Assembly (NCBI RefSeq): GCF_000193375.1 | Contig: NC_015315.1 | Span: 1,682,622 to 1,746,621, forward strand | From: Thermoproteus uzoniensis 768-20 | Lineage (GTDB): Archaea > Thermoproteota > Thermoprotei > Thermoproteales > Thermoproteaceae | Reading direction: 5' to 3' | DNA: 64,000 nt | In this document: piece after piece, positions 1 to 20,172 of the stretch | How positions within the stretch are numbered: the first letter of the stretch is position 1 | Layout: every line of letters starts with the position of its first letter | Notes under the pieces: model-generated | What the model was told of the DNA's origin: nothing | The model's input: the letters and a program-made list of their open reading frames with translations, nothing else | Database searches by the model: none | Position numbers and translations under genes: made by a program

Positions 1-578
1 GCGACCTCCTCGAGGAGGAGTTGCCCCAGCTCTACGTAGGATGGTCGCCTTGTTTCAGAAGAGAGGCCGGGGCCGGCAGTAGGGACATAAAGGGGATCTT
101 CAGAGTCCACATATTCCATAAGGTGGAGCAGTTCGTCTTCTCGCTGGCCGAGGAGTCCTGGACATGGCACGAGGAAATAACGAAGAACACAGAGGAGCTT
201 ATGCAAGGACTCGGCCTGCCGTATAGGGTAGTCAACATATGCGCCCACGATCTCGGCGCTCCGGCTGCTAAGAAATACGACGTAGAGGTATGGTATCCGG
301 CCCAGGGGACCTATAGGGAGCTCGCCAGCTGTTCCAACGTGACGGACTGGCAGTCGTATCGCTTGGGCATTAGGGTTACGAGGAGGGGCATGAAGCGCGA
401 GTATGTCCACACGCTTAACTGTACAGGTCTAGCGACTACTAGGACTATCACGGCGATTTTGGAGAACTACCAGAGGGAGGACGGGGCCGTCGAGATACCC
501 AAGGTCTTGAGAAAGTACCTAGAGCCCATAGCGACGGCCCCCAAGGATTATATAGTGCCTAAAAACGTCCGTAGATAA
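1..578 (+). CDS. serS: Seryl-tRNA synthetase, C-terminal part (5' end outside window)
   Basis: This is the 3' part of a class II aminoacyl-tRNA synthetase that charges tRNA-Ser in the cytoplasm. The open frame runs in from the window edge (first full codon at position 3) and ends with TAA at 576-578. The motif 2 region is visible (CFRREAGAG, then [12 protein letters not shown]), as is the C-terminal motif 3 region ([16 protein letters not shown]) with its conserved Arg. The combination is typical of SerRS, including the serine-site context around [19 protein letters not shown]. The N-terminal coiled-coil arm is off-window. A C/D box sRNA candidate follows directly downstream. Family assignment is secure; the start cannot be seen. 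Confidence 0.93.
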
Positions 579-630
579 TGAAGCCGGCGAGGCGCTCCGC
601 CGTCCTTTTTTAAATAGACTTCTTGGCGAT

Positions 631-690
631 AGTCGGTGATGAGGTAGCTCGCGGCTTAGCCGGTGACGAAGAGGCATACTGCCTGACTTG
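631..690 (+). ncRNA. Candidate C/D box sRNA (2'-O-methylation guide)
   Basis: The serS to NMN-adenylyltransferase gap contains an ordered set of C/D elements: C box GTGATGA (636-642), a 12-nt guide (643-654), a degenerate D' box CTTA (655-658), a 4-nt spacer, C' box GTGACGA (663-669), a 13-nt guide (670-682) and D box CTGA (683-686). A strong TATA-like box, CTTTTTTAAATAG (605-616), lies about 20 nt before the C box. Archaeal sRNAs of this class guide fibrillarin-dependent methylation of rRNA or tRNA with L7Ae and Nop5. I did not identify the target, and the transcript ends are approximate. Confidence 0.72.
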
Positions 691-717: not shown

Positions 718-1227
718 GTGAGGGTGGCGTTTATAGGGCGGTTCCAGCCGCTTCACTTGGGCCACGTCAAGGTGTTGGAGTGGCTTTCGGAACGGTACGA
801 CGACGTTGTAGTAGTCATAGGCTCTGCCGATAAGGGCATCACTAGGGACAACCCGTTCACTGTAGGCGAGAGGATCGAGATGTTCCTGCGCACCTTCGAC
901 AAGAGGTTTGTCCTATGCGCGGTGCCCGACACCAACGGCGGCTCCAGCCTATGGGGGGCCTACGTGAGGCATTGGTGCCCCCGCTTTGAGGTGGCCTTCT
1001 CCAACAACGGCTATGTGAGGGCCGCGTTGCGGTATGCCGGCGTAGACGTCAGAGAGCACCCCCTCTTCGATAGAGAGATCCTCTCCGGCAAGCATATAAG
1101 GGAGATGATAGCCTTGGGCGATCAGAAATGGCGCGAGTTGGTCCCGCGTAGCGTGTCCGACCTCATAGACGAGGTGGACGGCGTTAGGAGGATAAGGGAT
1201 CTATACGAGGAGGTTAGGTTTATATAG
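718..1227 (+). CDS. Nicotinamide-nucleotide adenylyltransferase (archaeal type)
   Basis: The protein (169 aa from this start) joins NMN with ATP to make NAD+. The nucleotidyltransferase signature GRFQPLHLGH stands at the N terminus, and the C-terminal SGKHIREM corresponds to the family's phosphate-binding ISGTxIR-like motif. I chose GTG 718 because it gives the usual family start (MRVAFIGRFQP) and because TTTAAAAAC (690-699) sits at TATA distance upstream, making the mRNA leaderless. The frame stays open back to TTG 688, but that stretch contains the promoter. rpo12 follows 18 nt downstream with its own TATA box overlapping this gene's end. Confidence 0.9.
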   Translation: MRVAFIGRFQPLHLGHVKVLEWLSERYDDVVVVIGSADKGITRDNPFTVGERIEMFLRTFDKRFVLCAVPDTNGGSSLWGAYVRHWCPRFEVAFSNNGYVRAALRYAGVDVREHPLFDREILSGKHIREMIALGDQKWRELVPRSVSDLIDEVDGVRRIRDLYEEVRFI

Positions 1228-8456: not shown

Positions 8457-8736
8457 AAAAAAGCTGTTGTCCGAAATAGCGCTTTATATATTGGAGGAAC
8501 TGGCGCTCAGAGGAGGTAAGGCCAGGGCTAAGTACTTGCGCTCCTACAGGGCACTAGAGTTCTGGGCGGGAGAGGACGTAGCGCGCGACGTAGTTAAGAG
8601 GCTTGCCGAGGGAGGATATATAAAACTAGAACAAGGCGATGTTATAGTATTAACGAAAGAGATATCAACAAAAAGAACTATTAAAGAAATAGAGAGATTA
8701 TCGTTATCTATTGCAAAATCTCTTTATAAAATCTAG
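8440..8736 (+). CDS. Small protein, possible winged-helix fold
   Basis: This is not a recognised family. The 98-aa protein overlaps the end of the dehydratase small subunit by 17 bp, so it is the last gene of the mevalonate operon. The pattern of helices ending in VVKRLAEGGYIKLEQGDVIVLTKE resembles the recognition helix and wing of a winged helix-turn-helix domain; the C terminus is a charged helix. The last 100 bp are AT-rich. A DNA-binding or regulatory role is only inferred. The 3' end overlaps the convergent glycosylase gene by 33 bp. Confidence 0.65.
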   Translation: MSVVDRKKLLSEIALYILEELALRGGKARAKYLRSYRALEFWAGEDVARDVVKRLAEGGYIKLEQGDVIVLTKEISTKRTIKEIERLSLSIAKSLYKI

Positions 8737-9447
8737 GAATTCTTTCGGGACGGCGTAGGATCTGTCCCCATACAGCACGACCCTTCCAGCCAGCCAGAGC
8801 AACGTATCTATATGGAGCGGCGGCACGCCGCTTCTCTCCGCTATCTCGCTCCAGATTCTCTGGACCTCTTCCCGTCTTCTCAAAGCCCCCTCCGGGTCGG
8901 CCTTTATTAGGCCGAGGCACGCAGTTAGCCTAGCTACTCTGTAGTCCACGGGGATAGGTATATCGTTGGGCAGAGCCCTATCAACGCCTCTGCAACACAT
9001 ATAGACATAGTTCAACATCTTCACCGTAAATACGACCGTCTTGGCCTCGCCGTCAGATCCCAGCAGGCGAGCTAGGTCTCTCCACGTCCTGGAGAGATCG
9101 ATTATATCGGGGTCGTAGTTACATACCTTTCTTATTCTCTTAATTCTAATATCTCTACCTATTGCTAAATAGGGACTTGTCTTTATATATTGTATGAATT
9201 CTTCGCAGATATTGTTCCCTTTTCTCCTGGAGAAGAAATCTGCGAAATAATGCCAGTGCTCCTCTCCTTTGCCTGTGAGCCTATAGCTTATCAAGGCATT
9301 CATCATGACGAGCCGCGCCGTATCCAGCTCGCCCCTATTACTGCAGAGACGGCATACTGACTTATACTGGGGATCCTCCTTCTCCAGATCCAGTATAGCC
9401 TTAAGCCCTATTTTCCTCAACAGCAGCGCTATCTCTTCTGCGGCCAT
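8704..9447 (-). CDS. Archaeal 8-oxoguanine DNA glycosylase/lyase (AGOG)
   Basis: AGOG is the archaeal helix-hairpin-helix glycosylase that removes 8-oxoguanine in base-excision repair. The 247-aa sequence shows the diagnostic segments ALISYRLTGKGEEHW, TVVFTVKMLNYVYMC (catalytic Lys143) and DIPIPVDYRVARLT (catalytic Asp168), and ends like Pyrobaculum AGOG (PPLHIDTLLWLAGR). The ATG 9447 start matches the family N terminus and lies inside the 3' end of priL, a 47-bp overlap, so the two are likely co-transcribed. The central region (about 9125-9245) is AT-rich. Confidence 0.93.
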   Translation of the reverse strand: MAAEEIALLLRKIGLKAILDLEKEDPQYKSVCRLCSNRGELDTARLVMMNALISYRLTGKGEEHWHYFADFFSRRKGNNICEEFIQYIKTSPYLAIGRDIRIKRIRKVCNYDPDIIDLSRTWRDLARLLGSDGEAKTVVFTVKMLNYVYMCCRGVDRALPNDIPIPVDYRVARLTACLGLIKADPEGALRRREEVQRIWSEIAERSGVPPLHIDTLLWLAGRVVLYGDRSYAVPKEFLDFIKRFCNR

Positions 9448-10450
9448 ATTGTACCGGGTTCTTCACTCCGCATCCCAAGTTGGTGGGGCAGAGGCCCCAG
9501 GAGTTCATGGTCTCGCAACTAGGCACCGAGTACTCCTTCCTGCCGCCGGCCTGTCCCGCTATGTGTTGCACCTGGTACCGCGTGATCTTCTCGTTGAAGT
9601 CGGGGACCGACCTGAAGAGGTCGACTATGCGGTCGACGTCCCACCCCCGCTTCAGCAGATAGGTGGTTATCGCAAAACGAGCCACGTGCGGGAGGTTCTC
9701 GCCGCGCCTCAACGCCTCAAGGATGGCGGCCATACAAGGCGGCGCCTCGCCCGTGGGCGCGGCTTTGACGGTGATGGGCCTATAAGATCTCAGCTTTTCT
9801 AGGAGGGCAGAGATTTTATCCACCTTGCCTAGGACGCCCGCTATATACCCGACGTCCTCTCTGGAGGCGAGCCTCAGTATCTTTGACTCGTATGCCTCTT
9901 CCAAGATCCTCTCGAAGTCGTCTATACGTAGAAGGACCCAGCCTCTCACCACGGGCCTATTTATCATAGACCAATCGGGATCTTGCGGCGCGTATCTTAG
10001 GTAGTGGATCCATTTAATCGCCAGGGGGTGGGTTACGGCGAGTACGGAGCCCTTGATTATGTCATGTGTGAGAGCAGTCTCCACGCCCAGATCGGCGGCT
10101 ATTTCTGCTTTACATTCAAACGACTGAATGCCCGGCGTGTTCCTGATTCTGAAAGTGAATATCTTGCTTTGGGAGTCCGCGAATCTCCTCAACACGTACG
10201 AGTTTGTTGAGGTTGCGACGATGTAGACCGCCAGTCTAGCCGCGGCCGCCTCAAGTTCTTGGTTCGAGGAGCACGGAGCGGGTTTACCCTTGCGGAGAGA
10301 GTTCTCGACTATTTGTATAGCCCTCTCTATAATAGCCTCAGACGCCAAGACGTTCTCGAGCGTGAGCCCGCGAGAGTATAGATACTCCCCCGACTTGTCA
10401 AGGTAGGGGAAGAGGCACGCGAGCTCCTGCGATGTGGCGTGGCAAGGCAC
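9401..10450 (-). CDS. priL: DNA primase large subunit PriL
   Basis: This is the regulatory subunit of the archaeal/eukaryotic primase; it holds a 4Fe-4S cluster and works with PriS to make primers. The four cluster cysteines are visible in the C-terminal domain: PPCM (about 239), PSCE (312), GLCP (321) and LGCG (327). The N-terminal region is helical as expected, and the length (349 aa) is typical. The GTG start is supported by an AT-rich box (10469-10482) on the minus strand. The 3' end overlaps the glycosylase gene by 47 bp, linking priming and oxidative-damage repair in one transcript. priS is not in the window. Confidence 0.9.
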   Translation of the reverse strand: MPCHATSQELACLFPYLDKSGEYLYSRGLTLENVLASEAIIERAIQIVENSLRKGKPAPCSSNQELEAAAARLAVYIVATSTNSYVLRRFADSQSKIFTFRIRNTPGIQSFECKAEIAADLGVETALTHDIIKGSVLAVTHPLAIKWIHYLRYAPQDPDWSMINRPVVRGWVLLRIDDFERILEEAYESKILRLASREDVGYIAGVLGKVDKISALLEKLRSYRPITVKAAPTGEAPPCMAAILEALRRGENLPHVARFAITTYLLKRGWDVDRIVDLFRSVPDFNEKITRYQVQHIAGQAGGRKEYSVPSCETMNSWGLCPTNLGCGVKNPVQYGRRRDSAAVEENRA

Positions 10451-13973: not shown

Positions 13974-16811
13974 GTGCTTAATATTACAGACTCGCCGTTC
14001 AACCCATCAGGGGTTACCCATCTGCATAGGCTACATCGCGCGCTCGGGTTCGACAAGGAGCTGGCTCAGATCGCCGATCTATTCGACCTAGTCGCAAAGA
14101 CCAGGAACAACGTGCTCGCAGTAGTCGTCGCGCCCTACGGCTACGGCAAGAGCGAGTTCCTAGATGAAGTGCAGAGGGAGGCGGATTCGAGAGGGCTTAG
14201 GACCATACGGGTGGCTCTGACGCACACGTTCAAGGAGGATGTACTGAGAAGTTTACAGGAGAAACGCCAAGGCGAGCCGCTGTTGGTGTTAATCGACGAA
14301 GCCGACGAGCTGTCGAGAATAGCGGCTATGCACAGGCTGGGCGCTTTGTCCAACGACGAGTTTAGGCAGGCGGTGATGGATCTGGCGTCTATAGTGCGGG
14401 CGTTGCTCGAGCCGAGGAACTACCCCCACGTGCTCAAGAACCCCGAGAATTACGATAGGGTGTTGGTGATCGCCGCATTAACGCCGCAGGTCTACTACAC
14501 TATACTCAAAAACGTAGTGCCGGACGTCTTCGACCTAACCACCGGCCGGGTGTATAAGGAGATAGTTCTCGACACGCGATACCCGTTTTGGCTCTTCGTC
14601 GAAATGGTGGCGTCGAGGCTAGATGCGTATATCAGAGCCAAAAGGCCGGACAAGCTTTGGCCCTTCACCCTAGGCGAGCTGGCCGCCCTATACAATATAG
14701 CCATGAAGAAGGGCGAGGTCAGTCCGAGATATCTGTTGAAATTGGCGGCCCGCCTATTCGAGCTGAAGAATAAGGGGAAGGGGCTTGCCGAGCTCGCCGA
14801 AGAGGAAGGAATATATATTCAGAAAAAGGAACTTGTTGAATATATATTATCTGGGCTTCCTACTATTAATATAGAAGAGAAATATATAGATATTTTTAAG
14901 AAAAAATATCTATATAGAATACCGTTTAGCGATAAGGAGGCTGTGGCCGCCGTCAATAGGTTCCTCAAGTTAAGAGGCGGGGAGATTAAGCCCACCGACG
15001 AGAGATCAGCCTCATACGAACCGAATCTATACTACACGATAATGGAAAACGGCGAGTTGATGATATATTTCGTCCACGACGAGGTGCTGGAAGAACTGAG
15101 AGAGTACCTGCTAGGCGAGGCCTATGTCGTGAGCGGCGACGTAATTTCCGCGACTGACAGGAGGGAGGATACGTATAGGATAAGCAAGGAGTTGCTTGCC
15201 AAGTTGCAAGACCCCCAGCAGTTTCTCAATGAAATAGAAAAAATACTTGATCTAAATGGAATAAAAATAAAAATATGTTGCGGAAAAGCTATATGGTATA
15301 ATAATTTAGGATTTAGAGAATTAATATTGTTAATATATCTAGATAAAGAAAACGATATAAATAACATTAGGAGCTTTATGAGCAAGATAATAGCGGAAGG
15401 AGCACTAGAGGAATATCCAATAGACTATATAATAGCATATATATTCTCAAATGTTTTATTAACCGACGAGTTGGAGGCCTCGATCTCTCAACTGCTTAAG
15501 ATTAGTTGGAAAAATCTATATATAGATAGCGCTGGTAAATATGTTTATTTAAATATATATGGTGCAGATAAATTAGATAGGCTGAAAACCGATATTGTCA
15601 AGTTCCAAATCGATAGAATACTGGGCAGAGATGCCGGGCCTCTGGAAATGCTGGAGAATCTCAAGCTGTATAGAGAGAAGGCGCGGGAGAACGTGCTCAA
15701 GTACACGCTGGCGTTGCGGAGAGGTAAGGAAAGGAAGGAGCTCTCCCTGCTGAAAGTCGCCGAGCAGCTTATCTCGGGCGAAGTGCCTGAAGGTATGGCC
15801 GCATATCATAGAATCGTCGACGTGCTTATCAGAGGTATAGAAAACGACATGCACGAAAAAGAGCTCAAGACGTTTATAGGCAGGCTCTTCCCGGTAAACC
15901 TCTGGAGAGATCTACGCGAGGACGACTTGGTGACCCTTATGGTCTACACGGGCTATCTAATTCCCCGAGATAGGGTCTATGTTAAATTTAATATGGAAGA
16001 CGCACGTAGATATCTAGAGGCTTTATCGAAAGAATTATATGCCTATTCCGAGATCGCGGTCTCCTTCAAGAGCAAGATTTTCGGAGAGATAAAGCTATCC
16101 AAAAAGCTCGACGTCGAGAAGATACCCCTCGAGTTTAAAGACGCCAAGGAATATGCGGCGTTAGTCGTGCGCCTCAAGAAGGCGTTGCTAGCGGCGCAAC
16201 AGGAGGCGGTCGCCGTGAGAGGCGAGTTGGAGCAAGAGCTTAGGGCCAAGAAAGACCTTGTAGGGATCTTGGAGAAGCTCGCAGAAAGGATGCCGCAGAG
16301 GATCAAGTACATGGCTCTCGACGAAAAGATAGCTGAGAGGGAGTCCGCCATCCTCAAGGCAGTGGACGAGATTACGGAGATCTGGAAGGGCTTGCATCCC
16401 CTGGCGCGCGAGCTCGGCAAGGCTATCTCCGTCGAGGCGGATCTCGGAATTCTGCTGAATTTGCCGGAGCCTTGGGTCGAGGACTATCTGGCCACGCTAA
16501 GGCTCTACTCGGTTAAGCTCAGGGAGGAGTACGAGGCGTATAGAAAGGACTCAGAACGCCGGAGGAGAGTTGCCGAATGGGTCAAGGTCCGCCTGGGCGC
16601 GTCCGACGGCGTTGACGAGGTCTTGAAGAAGAAATCGGAGGAGCTCCAGGTACCCTACCGGTTGCTGTACGCCATAGCGTCGCGGGGTCCCGGCGCCGAA
16701 CTGGACCCGGATGTGCTGGCCTCAGAGGCCTCTATGGAGGTCCGGCTGGTGTCCAAATACCTGGACTTGTTGGCAGAGAAGGGGCTAGTTGCGAAGAAGT
16801 ATGTCTCCTAG
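13974..16811 (+). CDS. Large P-loop (AAA+/ORC-like) ATPase linked to a NurA-like nuclease
   Basis: This 945-aa protein has an N-terminal AAA-type domain with Walker A APYGYGKS (53-60) and Walker B LLVLIDEAD (103-111), beginning with an ORC/KAP-like approach (GFDKELAQIADLFDLV). The middle is long and unassigned, with AT-rich patches (14810-14935, 15230-15460, 15500-15600, 15980-16040). A predicted coiled coil lies near residues 725-765 and a winged-helix-like domain closes the C terminus (LASEASMEVRLVSKYLDLLAEKGLV). It is not HerA by sequence, but it lies in overlapping frames with a 166-aa protein and a NurA-like nuclease. GTG 13974 has GATATATT upstream. A DNA end-processing or defence role is inferred from context only. 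Confidence 0.78.
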   Translation: MLNITDSPFNPSGVTHLHRLHRALGFDKELAQIADLFDLVAKTRNNVLAVVVAPYGYGKSEFLDEVQREADSRGLRTIRVALTHTFKEDVLRSLQEKRQGEPLLVLIDEADELSRIAAMHRLGALSNDEFRQAVMDLASIVRALLEPRNYPHVLKNPENYDRVLVIAALTPQVYYTILKNVVPDVFDLTTGRVYKEIVLDTRYPFWLFVEMVASRLDAYIRAKRPDKLWPFTLGELAALYNIAMKKGEVSPRYLLKLAARLFELKNKGKGLAELAEEEGIYIQKKELVEYILSGLPTINIEEKYIDIFKKKYLYRIPFSDKEAVAAVNRFLKLRGGEIKPTDERSASYEPNLYYTIMENGELMIYFVHDEVLEELREYLLGEAYVVSGDVISATDRREDTYRISKELLAKLQDPQQFLNEIEKILDLNGIKIKICCGKAIWYNNLGFRELILLIYLDKENDINNIRSFMSKIIAEGALEEYPIDYIIAYIFSNVLLTDELEASISQLLKISWKNLYIDSAGKYVYLNIYGADKLDRLKTDIVKFQIDRILGRDAGPLEMLENLKLYREKARENVLKYTLALRRGKERKELSLLKVAEQLISGEVPEGMAAYHRIVDVLIRGIENDMHEKELKTFIGRLFPVNLWRDLREDDLVTLMVYTGYLIPRDRVYVKFNMEDARRYLEALSKELYAYSEIAVSFKSKIFGEIKLSKKLDVEKIPLEFKDAKEYAALVVRLKKALLAAQQEAVAVRGELEQELRAKKDLVGILEKLAERMPQRIKYMALDEKIAERESAILKAVDEITEIWKGLHPLARELGKAISVEADLGILLNLPEPWVEDYLATLRLYSVKLREEYEAYRKDSERRRRVAEWVKVRLGASDGVDEVLKKKSEELQVPYRLLYAIASRGPGAELDPDVLASEASMEVRLVSKYLDLLAEKGLVAKKYVS

Positions 16812-17301
16812 AGTGGTCGTCATAAGGGAGGGGGAGTTGAGGCTCGACGGCGATGTGGTGATAGACGCCCGGCCGCCCTACGATTTCTACGACGTAGTGA
16901 TACTGGAGGGCAAAGAGTTGCGCTCAGTAGTCGCCGTGGGCGAGGCCAGGGGAGACGCGGTGGTTGGATGGGGCAAATACACCGGCAAGCCGGTCGCGGC
17001 CCTCCTCAAAGGCGTGTTGTACCTAAGGGCGGTCCCGTTGACGCTGTATCAGGAAATGGGGTATCTGGAACGCGAGTTCTCTACAAGAGAGGAGGTCGAC
17101 ATAAAGAAACTGGTGGAGAGGCTGAAGAAGATAGTGTTGGAGGAAAGACGAAAGTACAAGAAATCATCCTCGTTACTCGCCTTGCAGAAATTCGTGAACG
17201 GCGATGCGCCGTTGCCGAGCTATCTAGCAGACGTCCTCGGCCCTATTGGCAAGGACGTTGCGGCTAAGGTGTTGGAAGCGCTCTACAGCGAAATATATTG
17301 A
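16801..17301 (+). CDS. Uncharacterised protein between ATPase and NurA-like nuclease
   Basis: No family is recognised. The 166-aa product has a beta-rich N-terminal half (VVVIREGELRLDGDVVIDAR and further short strands) and a helical, Lys/Glu-rich C-terminal half (EEVDIKKLVERLKKIVLEER). ATG 16801 overlaps the ATPase stop by 11 bp, and its own stop shares one base with the nuclease ATG. This tight packing argues that the three proteins are made together and may form a complex; this one could be an adaptor. An upstream in-frame TTG at 16789 is less likely. Confidence 0.7.
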   Translation: MSPRVVVIREGELRLDGDVVIDARPPYDFYDVVILEGKELRSVVAVGEARGDAVVGWGKYTGKPVAALLKGVLYLRAVPLTLYQEMGYLEREFSTREEVDIKKLVERLKKIVLEERRKYKKSSSLLALQKFVNGDAPLPSYLADVLGPIGKDVAAKVLEALYSEIY

Positions 17302-18083
17302 TGAGACAGCTCATATCCGAGATACTGCGCCTTGCCGAGATGGAGATACCTAAATATAGAGATAAATTGATAGAGCTAGCGAGAGATATAGATGAGTATA
17401 AAAAGGAGGCGGTGGAGAGGCCCCGATATGTGGATACGCCGGACTATATCGCGATAGACTCCGGATATGCCGTGATTCAGTATAGATATTTAAATATAGC
17501 CATAATAGTTGTAGTTATAATTGATAAATATATAAATAGTGAAACCATATTATTTAGTTTTAAAAGAAATGAGGATATAGATTTAAATAGTTATATAAGA
17601 AAGCAGGAACTCGCACGTGCCGAAAAGCACAGCGGATATGTTCTGTCCGACGGCCCGTTGTCGCCCTATATGAAAGAACCTAGAGGCTTCATCATCGGCG
17701 TCTCGAAAGATCCGGTAGCTCCCAGGTATTGGAAGGGCATAGGCGGCCGTGTAGGCGAATGGCTCAGGGAAATATCCGGCTACGTATCAGAGCTGTACGG
17801 AGCCGAGCTTCTGCTTCGGGGCGAGCCGCCGGGCTCTATGCTGAAGCCCGTAAAGCTCGGCAAATATCTTGTTACATATATAAAGGGTGACTCTGTATTT
17901 TATGTAGAATTTCCTGAGTATATACCCAAGGATATTGTTGCATCATTTTTTAGGTATGGATATCCAATCAAGCTTAGAATCGCGCATAGGTATGCAAAGA
18001 TTACTCGGGAGTATTTGAGGACCGTTAGGACGATAGCGCCTAGACTTTTAGATATATCGACAAAATATAGGGAGTATCTATAA
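17301..18083 (+). CDS. NurA-like nuclease domain protein
   Basis: The 260-aa protein carries the ordered motifs of the NurA domain (Mn-dependent 5'-3' exonuclease/endonuclease, RNase H-like fold): IAIDSG with Asp53, a helix containing Glu103 (RKQELARAE), LSDGPLS with Asp117 and GVSKDP with Lys136. Canonical archaeal NurA (about 300-350 aa) works with the HerA translocase in DNA end resection with Mre11-Rad50. None of those partners is nearby; instead a different P-loop ATPase precedes it. Much of the gene is AT-rich. The assignment rests on motif spacing and is a divergent match. Confidence 0.7.
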   Translation: MRQLISEILRLAEMEIPKYRDKLIELARDIDEYKKEAVERPRYVDTPDYIAIDSGYAVIQYRYLNIAIIVVVIIDKYINSETILFSFKRNEDIDLNSYIRKQELARAEKHSGYVLSDGPLSPYMKEPRGFIIGVSKDPVAPRYWKGIGGRVGEWLREISGYVSELYGAELLLRGEPPGSMLKPVKLGKYLVTYIKGDSVFYVEFPEYIPKDIVASFFRYGYPIKLRIAHRYAKITREYLRTVRTIAPRLLDISTKYREYL

Positions 18084-18215
18084 GCCTTTATAAATATATA
18101 TTAGGTTAGCTATGGCTAGATTAACACAATCATCTAGGTCCAATTCATGTTTTTTACAGATTTCCTTGAGCGCCTTATATTCGGCGGGTTTGAGCGAGAT
18201 CACGACACGTTCCAT
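18078..18215 (-). CDS. Small ribbon-helix-helix (CopG-like) protein, 45 aa
   Basis: This frame encodes a beta strand (ERVVISLKPAEY) followed by two helices (YKALKEICKKHELDLDDCVN and LAIANLIYIY), the layout of a CopG/Arc-type ribbon-helix-helix DNA-binding protein. ATG 18215 lies about 17-29 nt after TTTTAATATATAC on the minus strand, as for leaderless genes in this window. Its stop overlaps the NurA-like gene end by 6 bp in convergent orientation. It may be an autoregulated repressor or an antitoxin-like protein; no toxin partner is evident. Confidence 0.72.
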   Translation of the reverse strand: MERVVISLKPAEYKALKEICKKHELDLDDCVNLAIANLIYIYKGL

Positions 18216-18265: not shown

Positions 18266-18865
18266 CTACTTCAATAAGCTCGTTATTTGCTGGAGCTTGT
18301 TCTTGACCTCCTCAAGCTCTCTGCGCAATCTGTCGTTCTCGGCCCTAAGCCTCTCCACCTCCTTAGACAGCTCCTCCTTCTCCCTCCTCAACGCCTCGTA
18401 GTCGGGCGCCGCTTGCCCGCACCTATCGCTTCTGACCCAGTAAATAAGTTCCGTCTTGTCCTTGTTCCACGTTATTTCGCCGGTGTCGGGATCTACGAGG
18501 AGCTCTGTCGATATCATAAATATGTCGCCGCGCTCCAGCTTATGCTTGGGCACAGCCTCCTCGAAAAACCACTTCTTCAACCCGTCGAAGAGCTCTCTGG
18601 AGGTCTCCCTAAACTTTTCTGAGTCCCTAATCCGCGCAAAAATATTCTCGCCATCGGGCCCGAACTGCTCTCTGAGCGAGCCGGCAACGGCTCCGAAGAG
18701 TAGCTTGAAGAACTCGGGCCGGCCGCCGGGGCCATACCGTCCGAAGAGCCTGCCTGCCGACGTCTTTCCCGTGTTCCATCTGATCAACAGAAGCCTCTTG
18801 CCCTCGCGGGTTACCAGCTCTGAGCGGACCTCTCCCCTCTCCTCCTCCCTCACCTCCTCGCCCAT
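18266..18865 (-). CDS. Coiled-coil protein of unknown function
   Basis: I do not recognise the family. The 199-aa protein has an acidic N terminus, a central compact domain (LLLIRWNTGKTSAGRLFGRY to FDGLKKWFFEEAVPKHKLERG) and a C-terminal coiled coil of about 45 residues with clear heptads (YEALRREKEELSKEVERLRA continuing to the end). A single Cys and an EITWNKDKTELIYWVRSD strand segment precede the coil. ATG 18865 lies 18-28 nt from the TTTTTAATATT box shared with the divergent radical-SAM gene. It may oligomerise; nothing more specific can be said. Confidence 0.72.
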   Translation of the reverse strand: MGEEVREEERGEVRSELVTREGKRLLLIRWNTGKTSAGRLFGRYGPGGRPEFFKLLFGAVAGSLREQFGPDGENIFARIRDSEKFRETSRELFDGLKKWFFEEAVPKHKLERGDIFMISTELLVDPDTGEITWNKDKTELIYWVRSDRCGQAAPDYEALRREKEELSKEVERLRAENDRLRRELEEVKNKLQQITSLLK

Positions 18866-19845: not shown

Positions 19846-20172
19846 ATGAAGCTGTGCCTGGCGCTGATAGCTATAGCCGTCGGCGTCTACGCGTCCGCCG
19901 TCAACGGCACAAACGCCACAGCTCCTGTAGGGGTCCTAGACAATATAAATAATATAATAAATAATTGGTTAAATATAGGTACAAACTTTCTAGTTAATCT
20001 AGAATATACATTAAAGTATTATATTGTTAAAATATCGGAAGTCGCGGCCGTCATTATGGCCATGATAGGGGCGTTTCTATATTTCACAAGGCTAAGTAAG
20101 TACACCGGGCGTAGTCTGCTCATAGGCGCCGTGTTGCTGTACCTCTTCGCAGAGATCCTAAAGGGCATCTGA
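19846..20172 (+). CDS. Small secreted/membrane protein, VirB2/TedC-like pilin candidate
   Basis: The 108-aa product starts with a typical Sec signal peptide (MKLCLALIAIAVGVYASAVNG, possible cleavage near residues 17-21). Two hydrophobic helices follow (ISEVAAVIMAMIGAFLYF and SLLIGAVLLYLFAEIL) separated by a short basic loop (TRLSKYTGR). This order (signal peptide, long helix, basic loop, second helix) is that of conjugative VirB2/TrbC pilins and of the crenarchaeal DNA-import pilins CedA1 and TedC. The identification is by topology only. The start has TTTTTAACC (19822-19830) upstream. The inter-helix region is AT-rich. No other Ted/Ced gene lies in the window. Confidence 0.6.
   Translation: MKLCLALIAIAVGVYASAVNGTNATAPVGVLDNINNIINNWLNIGTNFLVNLEYTLKYYIVKISEVAAVIMAMIGAFLYFTRLSKYTGRSLLIGAVLLYLFAEILKGI

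Follow-up and report, generated by a model that had tools for sequence, protein, structure and literature searches.

The window analysed here, a 64,000-nucleotide stretch of the Thermoproteus uzoniensis 768-20 genome, carries a trio of genes at positions 13974-18083 of its plus strand, whose products are a P-loop ATPase of 945 aa, a middle protein of 166 aa and a NurA homologue of 260 aa (Table 1). The first-pass annotation had described the three genes as packed in overlapping frames, and this is indeed the case: the ATPase frame overlaps that of the middle protein by 11 bp, and the latter overlaps the NurA frame by 1 bp. The same overlaps recur in four congeners (11-bp and 1-4-bp), and the three genes probably form one operon that is translationally coupled.

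Table 1. Genes of the trio and its convergent neighbours (window positions, in nucleotides), and segments of the ATPase (positions in residues).
Feature	Position	Strand	Remarks
ATPase	13974..16811	+	GTG start, 945 aa
Middle protein	16801..17301	+	166 aa, no known family
NurA-family nuclease	17301..18083	+	260 aa; D53/E103/D117/K136 invariant
Conserved small protein	18078..18215	-	45 aa; converges on nurA 3' end
ThermoDBP	18266..18865	-	PF18361, E 1.4e-83; convergent neighbour
ATPase, AAA+ module	~27-280		Walker A K59, Walker B D108/E109, likely arginine finger R192, sensor-2 R252
ATPase, probable winged helix	~285-317		from predicted secondary structure and alignment
ATPase, alpha+beta region	~320-530		from predicted secondary structure and alignment
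ATPase, second winged-helix-like segment	~611-671		from predicted secondary structure and alignment
ATPase, predicted coiled coil	724-874		from predicted secondary structure and alignment
ATPase, C-terminal winged helix	~880-945		limits from predicted secondary structure and alignment

A ribbon-helix-helix gene was earlier said to converge on the end of the trio. A convergent 45-aa ORF does lie there and is conserved in that position in the Thermoproteaceae; the protein is ribbon-helix-helix-like by eye only, Pfam giving no such match. The larger gene converging on the trio, left unnamed at the time, encodes ThermoDBP. It is conserved near the trio in the Thermoproteaceae and was not recovered in the trio loci of other families; with adjacency confined to one family, a functional link to ThermoDBP is therefore weak. 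Genes for the DNA primase large subunit and an AGOG glycosylase lie a few kb upstream, and the vicinity of the trio also holds a ParA-like gene and the gene of a small secreted protein with two helices. The possibility that this small protein is a conjugative pilin was considered and is unsupported, its profile returning no pilin match in the PDB; nor was a TedA-like gene of the multi-span type observed next to it.

The ATPase possesses both motifs ascribed to it from the outset, Walker A (APYGYGKS) and Walker B (DEADE). Among 23-24 orthologues, drawn from three families, neither these motifs nor the four NurA residues listed in Table 1 vary, a conservation far beyond chance. In AlphaFold/Foldseek comparisons, the fold groups with ORC/Cdc6-type AAA+ proteins, many ORC/Cdc6 initiators being among the matches, and not with HerA/FtsK, an identity that the fold search excludes; the earlier view that its architecture differs from that of HerA is thereby borne out. 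Using hhalign, the whole AAA+ module aligned with DUF499 (87%, E 3.9e-6), the profile comparison stopping at the end of this module. The Pfam family BrxC_BrxD weakly matches nine of 23 members, passing its cut-off in two genomes, the direct match to PF10923 covers the P-loop region only, and PADLOC mad8 matches five of the 23. Weak nSTAND_NTPase5 matches raised the alternative of a STAND NTPase, which is not favoured since the ORC/Cdc6 fold fits better. The predicted C-terminal winged helix is supported by a MarR_2 match in 12 of 23 members. On its modelled structure, the protein is thus an AAA+ ATPase of the ORC/Cdc6-BrxC/DUF499 type with intact ATPase motifs.

Comparison with the two nearest groups delimits this assignment. 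With the Orc1/Cdc6 initiators (~400 aa) the trio ATPase shares the AAA+ fold class; in contrast to them, it is more than twice as long (945-1245 aa among orthologues), contains a coiled coil and extra domains, and has no reported Pfam match of the Cdc6_C type, the initiator C-terminal domain, in the window protein or the 23 members. With the BrxC/DUF499/DUF6079 ATPases it shares an AAA+ module of the ORC/Cdc6 clade, which the DUF499 alignment covers from end to end. The order of the segments that follow in those ATPases (winged helix, alpha+beta, winged helix, coiled coil) may be similar, since it fits the predicted secondary structure of the trio ATPase, but no sequence match to them is detectable beyond the AAA+ module, where the profile comparison ends.

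The assignment of the 260-aa protein as a divergent NurA holds at the level of the family. Taken alone, the window protein scores 17.0 bits against Pfam NurA (PF09376), below the cut-off of 21 bits; 22 of 24 orthologues match this profile at E<=0.01 (best 5.4e-20), many of them over the cut-off, and the only PDB match of the family profile is Sulfolobus NurA (2ygk, E 9.8e-7). D53, E103, D117 and K136 are invariant in all 24 orthologues. In S. islandicus NurA, residues D58, E116, D133 and K202 are described as critical (PMC4351679), and the four trio residues correspond to these in kind. The 2ygk alignment places both D residues on matching motifs, the equivalence of K136 and K202 lying outside what it shows. 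On sequence grounds the protein is a member of the NurA family, and we regard this call as firm. The RNase H-like/NurA fold on which the first-pass annotation made its reading depend is putative, indicated only indirectly by the family profiles and the match to the Sulfolobus NurA structure. In a NurA tree, a branch separates the trio NurAs from the others, with a support (60/83) that is not decisive.

The middle protein had been reported as belonging to no known family, and this is upheld. Its predicted fold is confident, with a beta-rich N-terminal half (seven strands at 5-79) and a helical C-terminal half bearing an invariant E115-R116 pair and Y166; no significant fold match was obtained, the best E being 0.13 in the PDB and 0.12 in the viral library. 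Nor did any match support its being a HerA-type beta-barrel that has become detached. It is possible that the protein serves as an adaptor.

The ATPase, middle and NurA genes were each found in 25 of 25 high-quality Thermoproteales genomes tested. The middle and nuclease genes are adjacent in all 39 genomes that possess the middle gene, and the ATPase and middle genes in 38 of the 39. Flanking genes differ between families, the trio being the only gene set common to them; the first-pass view of the three genes as one module was exposed to this comparison and survived it. No relatives of the ATPase were found in 223 other Thermoproteota genomes or in a scan of 84,980 species, nor on phages, plasmids or viral contigs in scans of those records. 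Matches of the ATPase profile in Thermoproteota outside the Thermoproteales were short, lay in the coiled coil, C-terminal region or P-loop, and were rejected, while two loci of another family, encoding a 908-aa P-loop protein and a 372-aa partner, were judged non-homologous beyond the P-loop. In one 69%-complete genome (G009), other genes directly follow the ATPase and no middle gene or NurA gene of this type was detected; the ATPase may therefore also act alone. The trio is a core, Thermoproteales-specific feature, without patchiness in the 25 good genomes.

Until now, NurA has been regarded as the nuclease that works with HerA. It had been noted that neither HerA nor Mre11-Rad50 accompanies the trio, which is correct for the window but not for the genome, where all are present elsewhere (G000:C1:~665985-671036). 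Matches to the HerA profile PF01935 likewise lie elsewhere in the genome, and two other NurA genes occur elsewhere in the same genome. The module is, therefore, an addition and not a replacement. Three other NurA loci were opened, of which two (L185 and L186) look like NurA-HerA pairs; at the third (L187), neither HerA nor an ATPase of the trio type adjoins. The trio resembles HerA-NurA (with Mre11-Rad50) in its NurA-family nuclease with intact catalytic residues, and in the close linkage of the nuclease gene to that of a DNA-related P-loop ATPase, but differs in that this ATPase is an ORC/Cdc6-type AAA+ protein and not HerA/FtsK, in its third gene of no known family, and in the location of the canonical HerA-Mre11-Rad50 elsewhere in its genome. 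NurA-family nucleases are retained across the Thermoproteales; for Pyrobaculum, Bernick et al. (2012, PMC3396285) list three NurA-HerA pairs and an unpaired herA group, the CRISPR-linked nurA-csm6-herA cluster being counted with the paralogue pairs. Unlike here, the accessible part of that study shows no NurA whose partner ATPase is other than HerA. A description of the trio itself was not found in the open-access papers searched on NurA, ThermoDBP and BREX.

We propose that the trio encodes a Thermoproteales-specific, ATP-dependent DNA-processing complex, a reading to which we assign a probability of roughly 0.5. The ATPase would oligomerise via its arginine finger, hold DNA by its winged-helix domains and use the middle protein to recruit and gate a NurA dimer, so that cutting would be under ATP control, as in HerA-NurA. 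With less certainty, the substrate may be ends, forks or recombination intermediates of the cell's own DNA, and the single-stranded product may be passed to ThermoDBP, a role in genome maintenance rather than immunity. One suggestion of the first-pass annotation, an alternative DNA end-processing machine, remains a plausible candidate; there is, however, no obvious need for a further end-resection machine in a genome that already encodes HerA-Mre11-Rad50 and two other NurA proteins.

The other early suggestion, an anti-mobile-element machine, corresponds to the main rival: a BREX-related system against viruses or plasmids, fixed in the order, in which invading DNA would be recognised or captured by the BrxC/DUF499-like ATPase and then degraded by NurA, acting where PglZ or a restriction effector otherwise would. 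It is chiefly from defence that BrxC-type ATPases are known, and a BREX-related capture system centred on HerA/FtsK has been described (PMC12839542), which counts for this rival, as do the full-length DUF499 alignment of the AAA+ module, the BrxC_BrxD and mad8 matches and a predicted domain order similar to that published for BrxC. However, the direct PF10923 match is limited to the P-loop region, and no methyltransferase, PglZ or helicase, nor indeed any defence gene, was found among the scanned neighbours in the window and the loci of other families. A mobile defence system would be expected to be patchy or carried on mobile elements, whereas the trio is present in every good genome, with a NurA partner and specific to the order, and its ATPase has no match on viral contigs, phages or plasmids. 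Immunity is weakened accordingly, and we consider it rather unlikely.

A replication or chromosome-segregation complex, whose ORC/Cdc6-like AAA+ protein would load or organise DNA while NurA trims intermediates, appears less probable still. It would accommodate the many initiators among the Foldseek matches, the long predicted coiled coil and winged helices, and the nearby primase subunit and ThermoDBP, but no replication genes were found among scanned neighbours outside the Thermoproteaceae, the Cdc6_C-type match is lacking, and BREX proteins also carry ORC-type AAA+ folds; the fold, therefore, does not fix the function. Least probable is a role in the Ted DNA-exchange system of the Thermoproteales, in which the module would make or receive single-stranded DNA for transfer. 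Its authors proposed NurA-HerA as the source of such DNA and reported that ParA, HerA and Rad50 are encoded in the vicinity of Ted genes (PMC9905601), which the ParA-like gene and small secreted protein near the trio might echo; yet these two genes are unlinked to the trio outside the Thermoproteaceae, and neither a pilin match nor an adjoining TedA-like gene was seen.

Genome maintenance remains our preferred reading, and a tentative extension of it, in which we place less trust, is that a BrxC/ORC-type AAA+ protein took the place of HerA as the motor of NurA, a BREX-type ATPase having been domesticated for housekeeping and co-inherited with an adaptor of novel fold.

In the Thermoproteales, their own ssDNA-binding protein has already been replaced by ThermoDBP, and the trio is a further candidate among the odd DNA proteins of this thermophilic order of archaea. 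The pairing of NurA with a replication-initiator/BREX-type ATPase suggests that the core equipment of Thermoproteales cells includes an ATP-driven machine for DNA processing that has so far escaped study. If this is true, a NurA nuclease can be driven by a motor other than HerA, and an ATPase family of the defence type would be tied to core genome upkeep. Whether the machine is essential, and which DNA it cuts, thereby become testable questions.

The three genes of the module overlap by 11 bp and 1 bp in the source genome (1.94 Mb, single contig) and again by 11 bp and 1-4 bp in congeners, a recurrence that fits translational coupling. The ATPase was detected in 41 of 45 Thermoproteales genomes and the middle protein in 39, while the module NurA profile matched 41, a few being weak or paralogue matches; all 25 good-quality genomes (completeness ≥90%, contamination ≤5%) possess each of the three. 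Adjacency, counted by eye from coordinate tables, holds for the middle and nuclease genes in 39/39 genomes, with the ATPase immediately upstream in 38. The trio is thus kept together across the order, the check that the first-pass annotation proposed. The flanks are common to members of one family or genus and not across families; hence, the conserved unit is the trio itself.

The lone adjacency exception, genome G034, is represented by a short metagenome contig (L105) in which 3.8 kb separates the ATPase from the oppositely oriented middle-nurA pair, possibly an assembly fault. The trio genes are fragmented in G012 (47% complete). Other genes follow the ATPase in G009 (69% complete), where a genome-wide search detected neither the middle nor a module-type NurA gene, and an 81-aa ORF occupies their place.

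Searches beyond the order with the ATPase profile gave no convincing match in 23 same-class genomes outside Thermoproteales, or in the non-Thermoproteales genomes among 250 Thermoproteota drawn (where the tabulated results include 27 matches and a single non-match from Thermoproteales itself). Conserved peptide patterns, which very distant relatives may escape, picked out 22 loci among 84,980 species of bacteria and archaea: those named to genus belong to Thermoproteus, Pyrobaculum, Thermocladium, Caldivirga and Vulcanisaeta, and the remainder to unnamed Thermoproteales, Thermoproteaceae, Thermoprotei or Thermoproteota bins. No ATPase relatives were found in the viral contigs, phages and plasmids searched. 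Two genomes of another family encode a 908-aa P-loop protein with a 372-aa partner of unknown family.

Coordinates of the features discussed (window positions unless a locus or contig is named)
Feature	Position	Strand	Remark
945-aa ATPase	within 13974-18083	+	ORF, first of three overlapping genes
166-aa middle protein	within 13974-18083	+	ORF, second gene
260-aa NurA-like protein	within 13974-18083	+	ORF, third gene
45-aa ORF	18078-18215	-	convergent with nurA, at its end; conserved in Thermoproteaceae loci with sequence there
AGOG DNA glycosylase and DNA primase large subunit	8704-10450	-	overlapping genes, few kb from trio
108-aa secreted protein	19846-20172	+	predicted membrane helices flanking basic loop
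Split trio (G034)	L105 5586-13564		
81-aa ORF locus (G009 metagenome contig)	L118 2300-7207		
908-aa/372-aa pairs	L157 2976-6827; L158 3238-7089		
1033-aa frame, source genome	C1:1482245-1482985		
HerA, Mre11, Rad50, source genome	about C1:665985-671036		consecutive

The ATPase model (mean pLDDT 85.8) retrieved AAA+ proteins as its leading PDB matches in Foldseek, with numerous ORC/Cdc6 initiators among the best, including Pyrobaculum Cdc6 (1fnn) and Aeropyrum Orc2 (1w5s), at target TM-scores of about 0.4-0.47. HerA and FtsK are absent from the 50 matches listed, in agreement with the earlier proposal of an architecture distinct from HerA. The alignment retains the Walker motifs as well as R192, from its place a probable arginine finger, and R252, which belongs to an SPR motif and may be sensor-2-like. 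Against a profile of twelve DUF499 ATPases the entire AAA+ module aligned (87% probability, E 3.9e-6), the alignment ending at the module boundary. BrxC comprises AAA+, winged-helix, alpha+beta, winged-helix and coiled-coil domains (PMC12839542); predicted secondary structure, read by eye, suggests the same order in the trio ATPase, which differs in adding a terminal winged helix. Another large ORF of the source genome (1033-aa frame) gives a weak DUF499 match that still exceeds the cut-off (35.4 bits), as occurs in several Thermoproteales.

The window NurA-like protein scores slightly under the Pfam NurA cut-off; of 24 orthologues, 22 do match that family, with a best E-value of 5.4e-20, and the orthologue profile has a single PDB match, Sulfolobus NurA 2ygk (E 9.8e-7). 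D53, E103, D117 and K136 are invariant, upholding the assignment as a divergent NurA with these residues. In S. islandicus, NurA nuclease activity is essential and D58, E116, D133 and K202 are critical (PMC4351679). A tree built from 47 NurA sequences places those of the module on the same side of one branch, whose support is modest (60/83), so that a single origin is only likely. The source genome carries two further NurA genes, and its HerA, Mre11 and Rad50 genes are consecutive (Mre11 identified by position and N-terminal sequence). The middle protein, modelled confidently (pLDDT 89, pTM 0.57) as seven strands followed by helices, gave no match in family searches and no significant one in fold searches, and so retains its description as a protein of no known family.

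In Thermoproteaceae the trio converges with the ThermoDBP gene, with zero, one or two genes between; weakly similar ORFs stand at the place of the 45-aa ORF in L118 and L119, loci of another family. Upstream in the window lie genes for a GNAT protein, a ParA-like protein, a phosphoesterase, a Clp1-type kinase, the DNA primase large subunit and AGOG glycosylase. The 108-aa secreted protein, kept in Thermoproteaceae, adjoins a radical SAM gene; its outline is VirB2-pilin-like, and its profile found no match among PDB pilins.

Judged from co-occurrence, coupling and the types of partner, the trio most likely encodes an ATP-controlled nuclease complex. Since its ATPase is related to BrxC/DUF499, the trio may be of fixed or domesticated defence origin. 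Its fixed, single-copy presence across the order favours a role for this putative complex on the cell's own DNA rather than in a mobile defence system.
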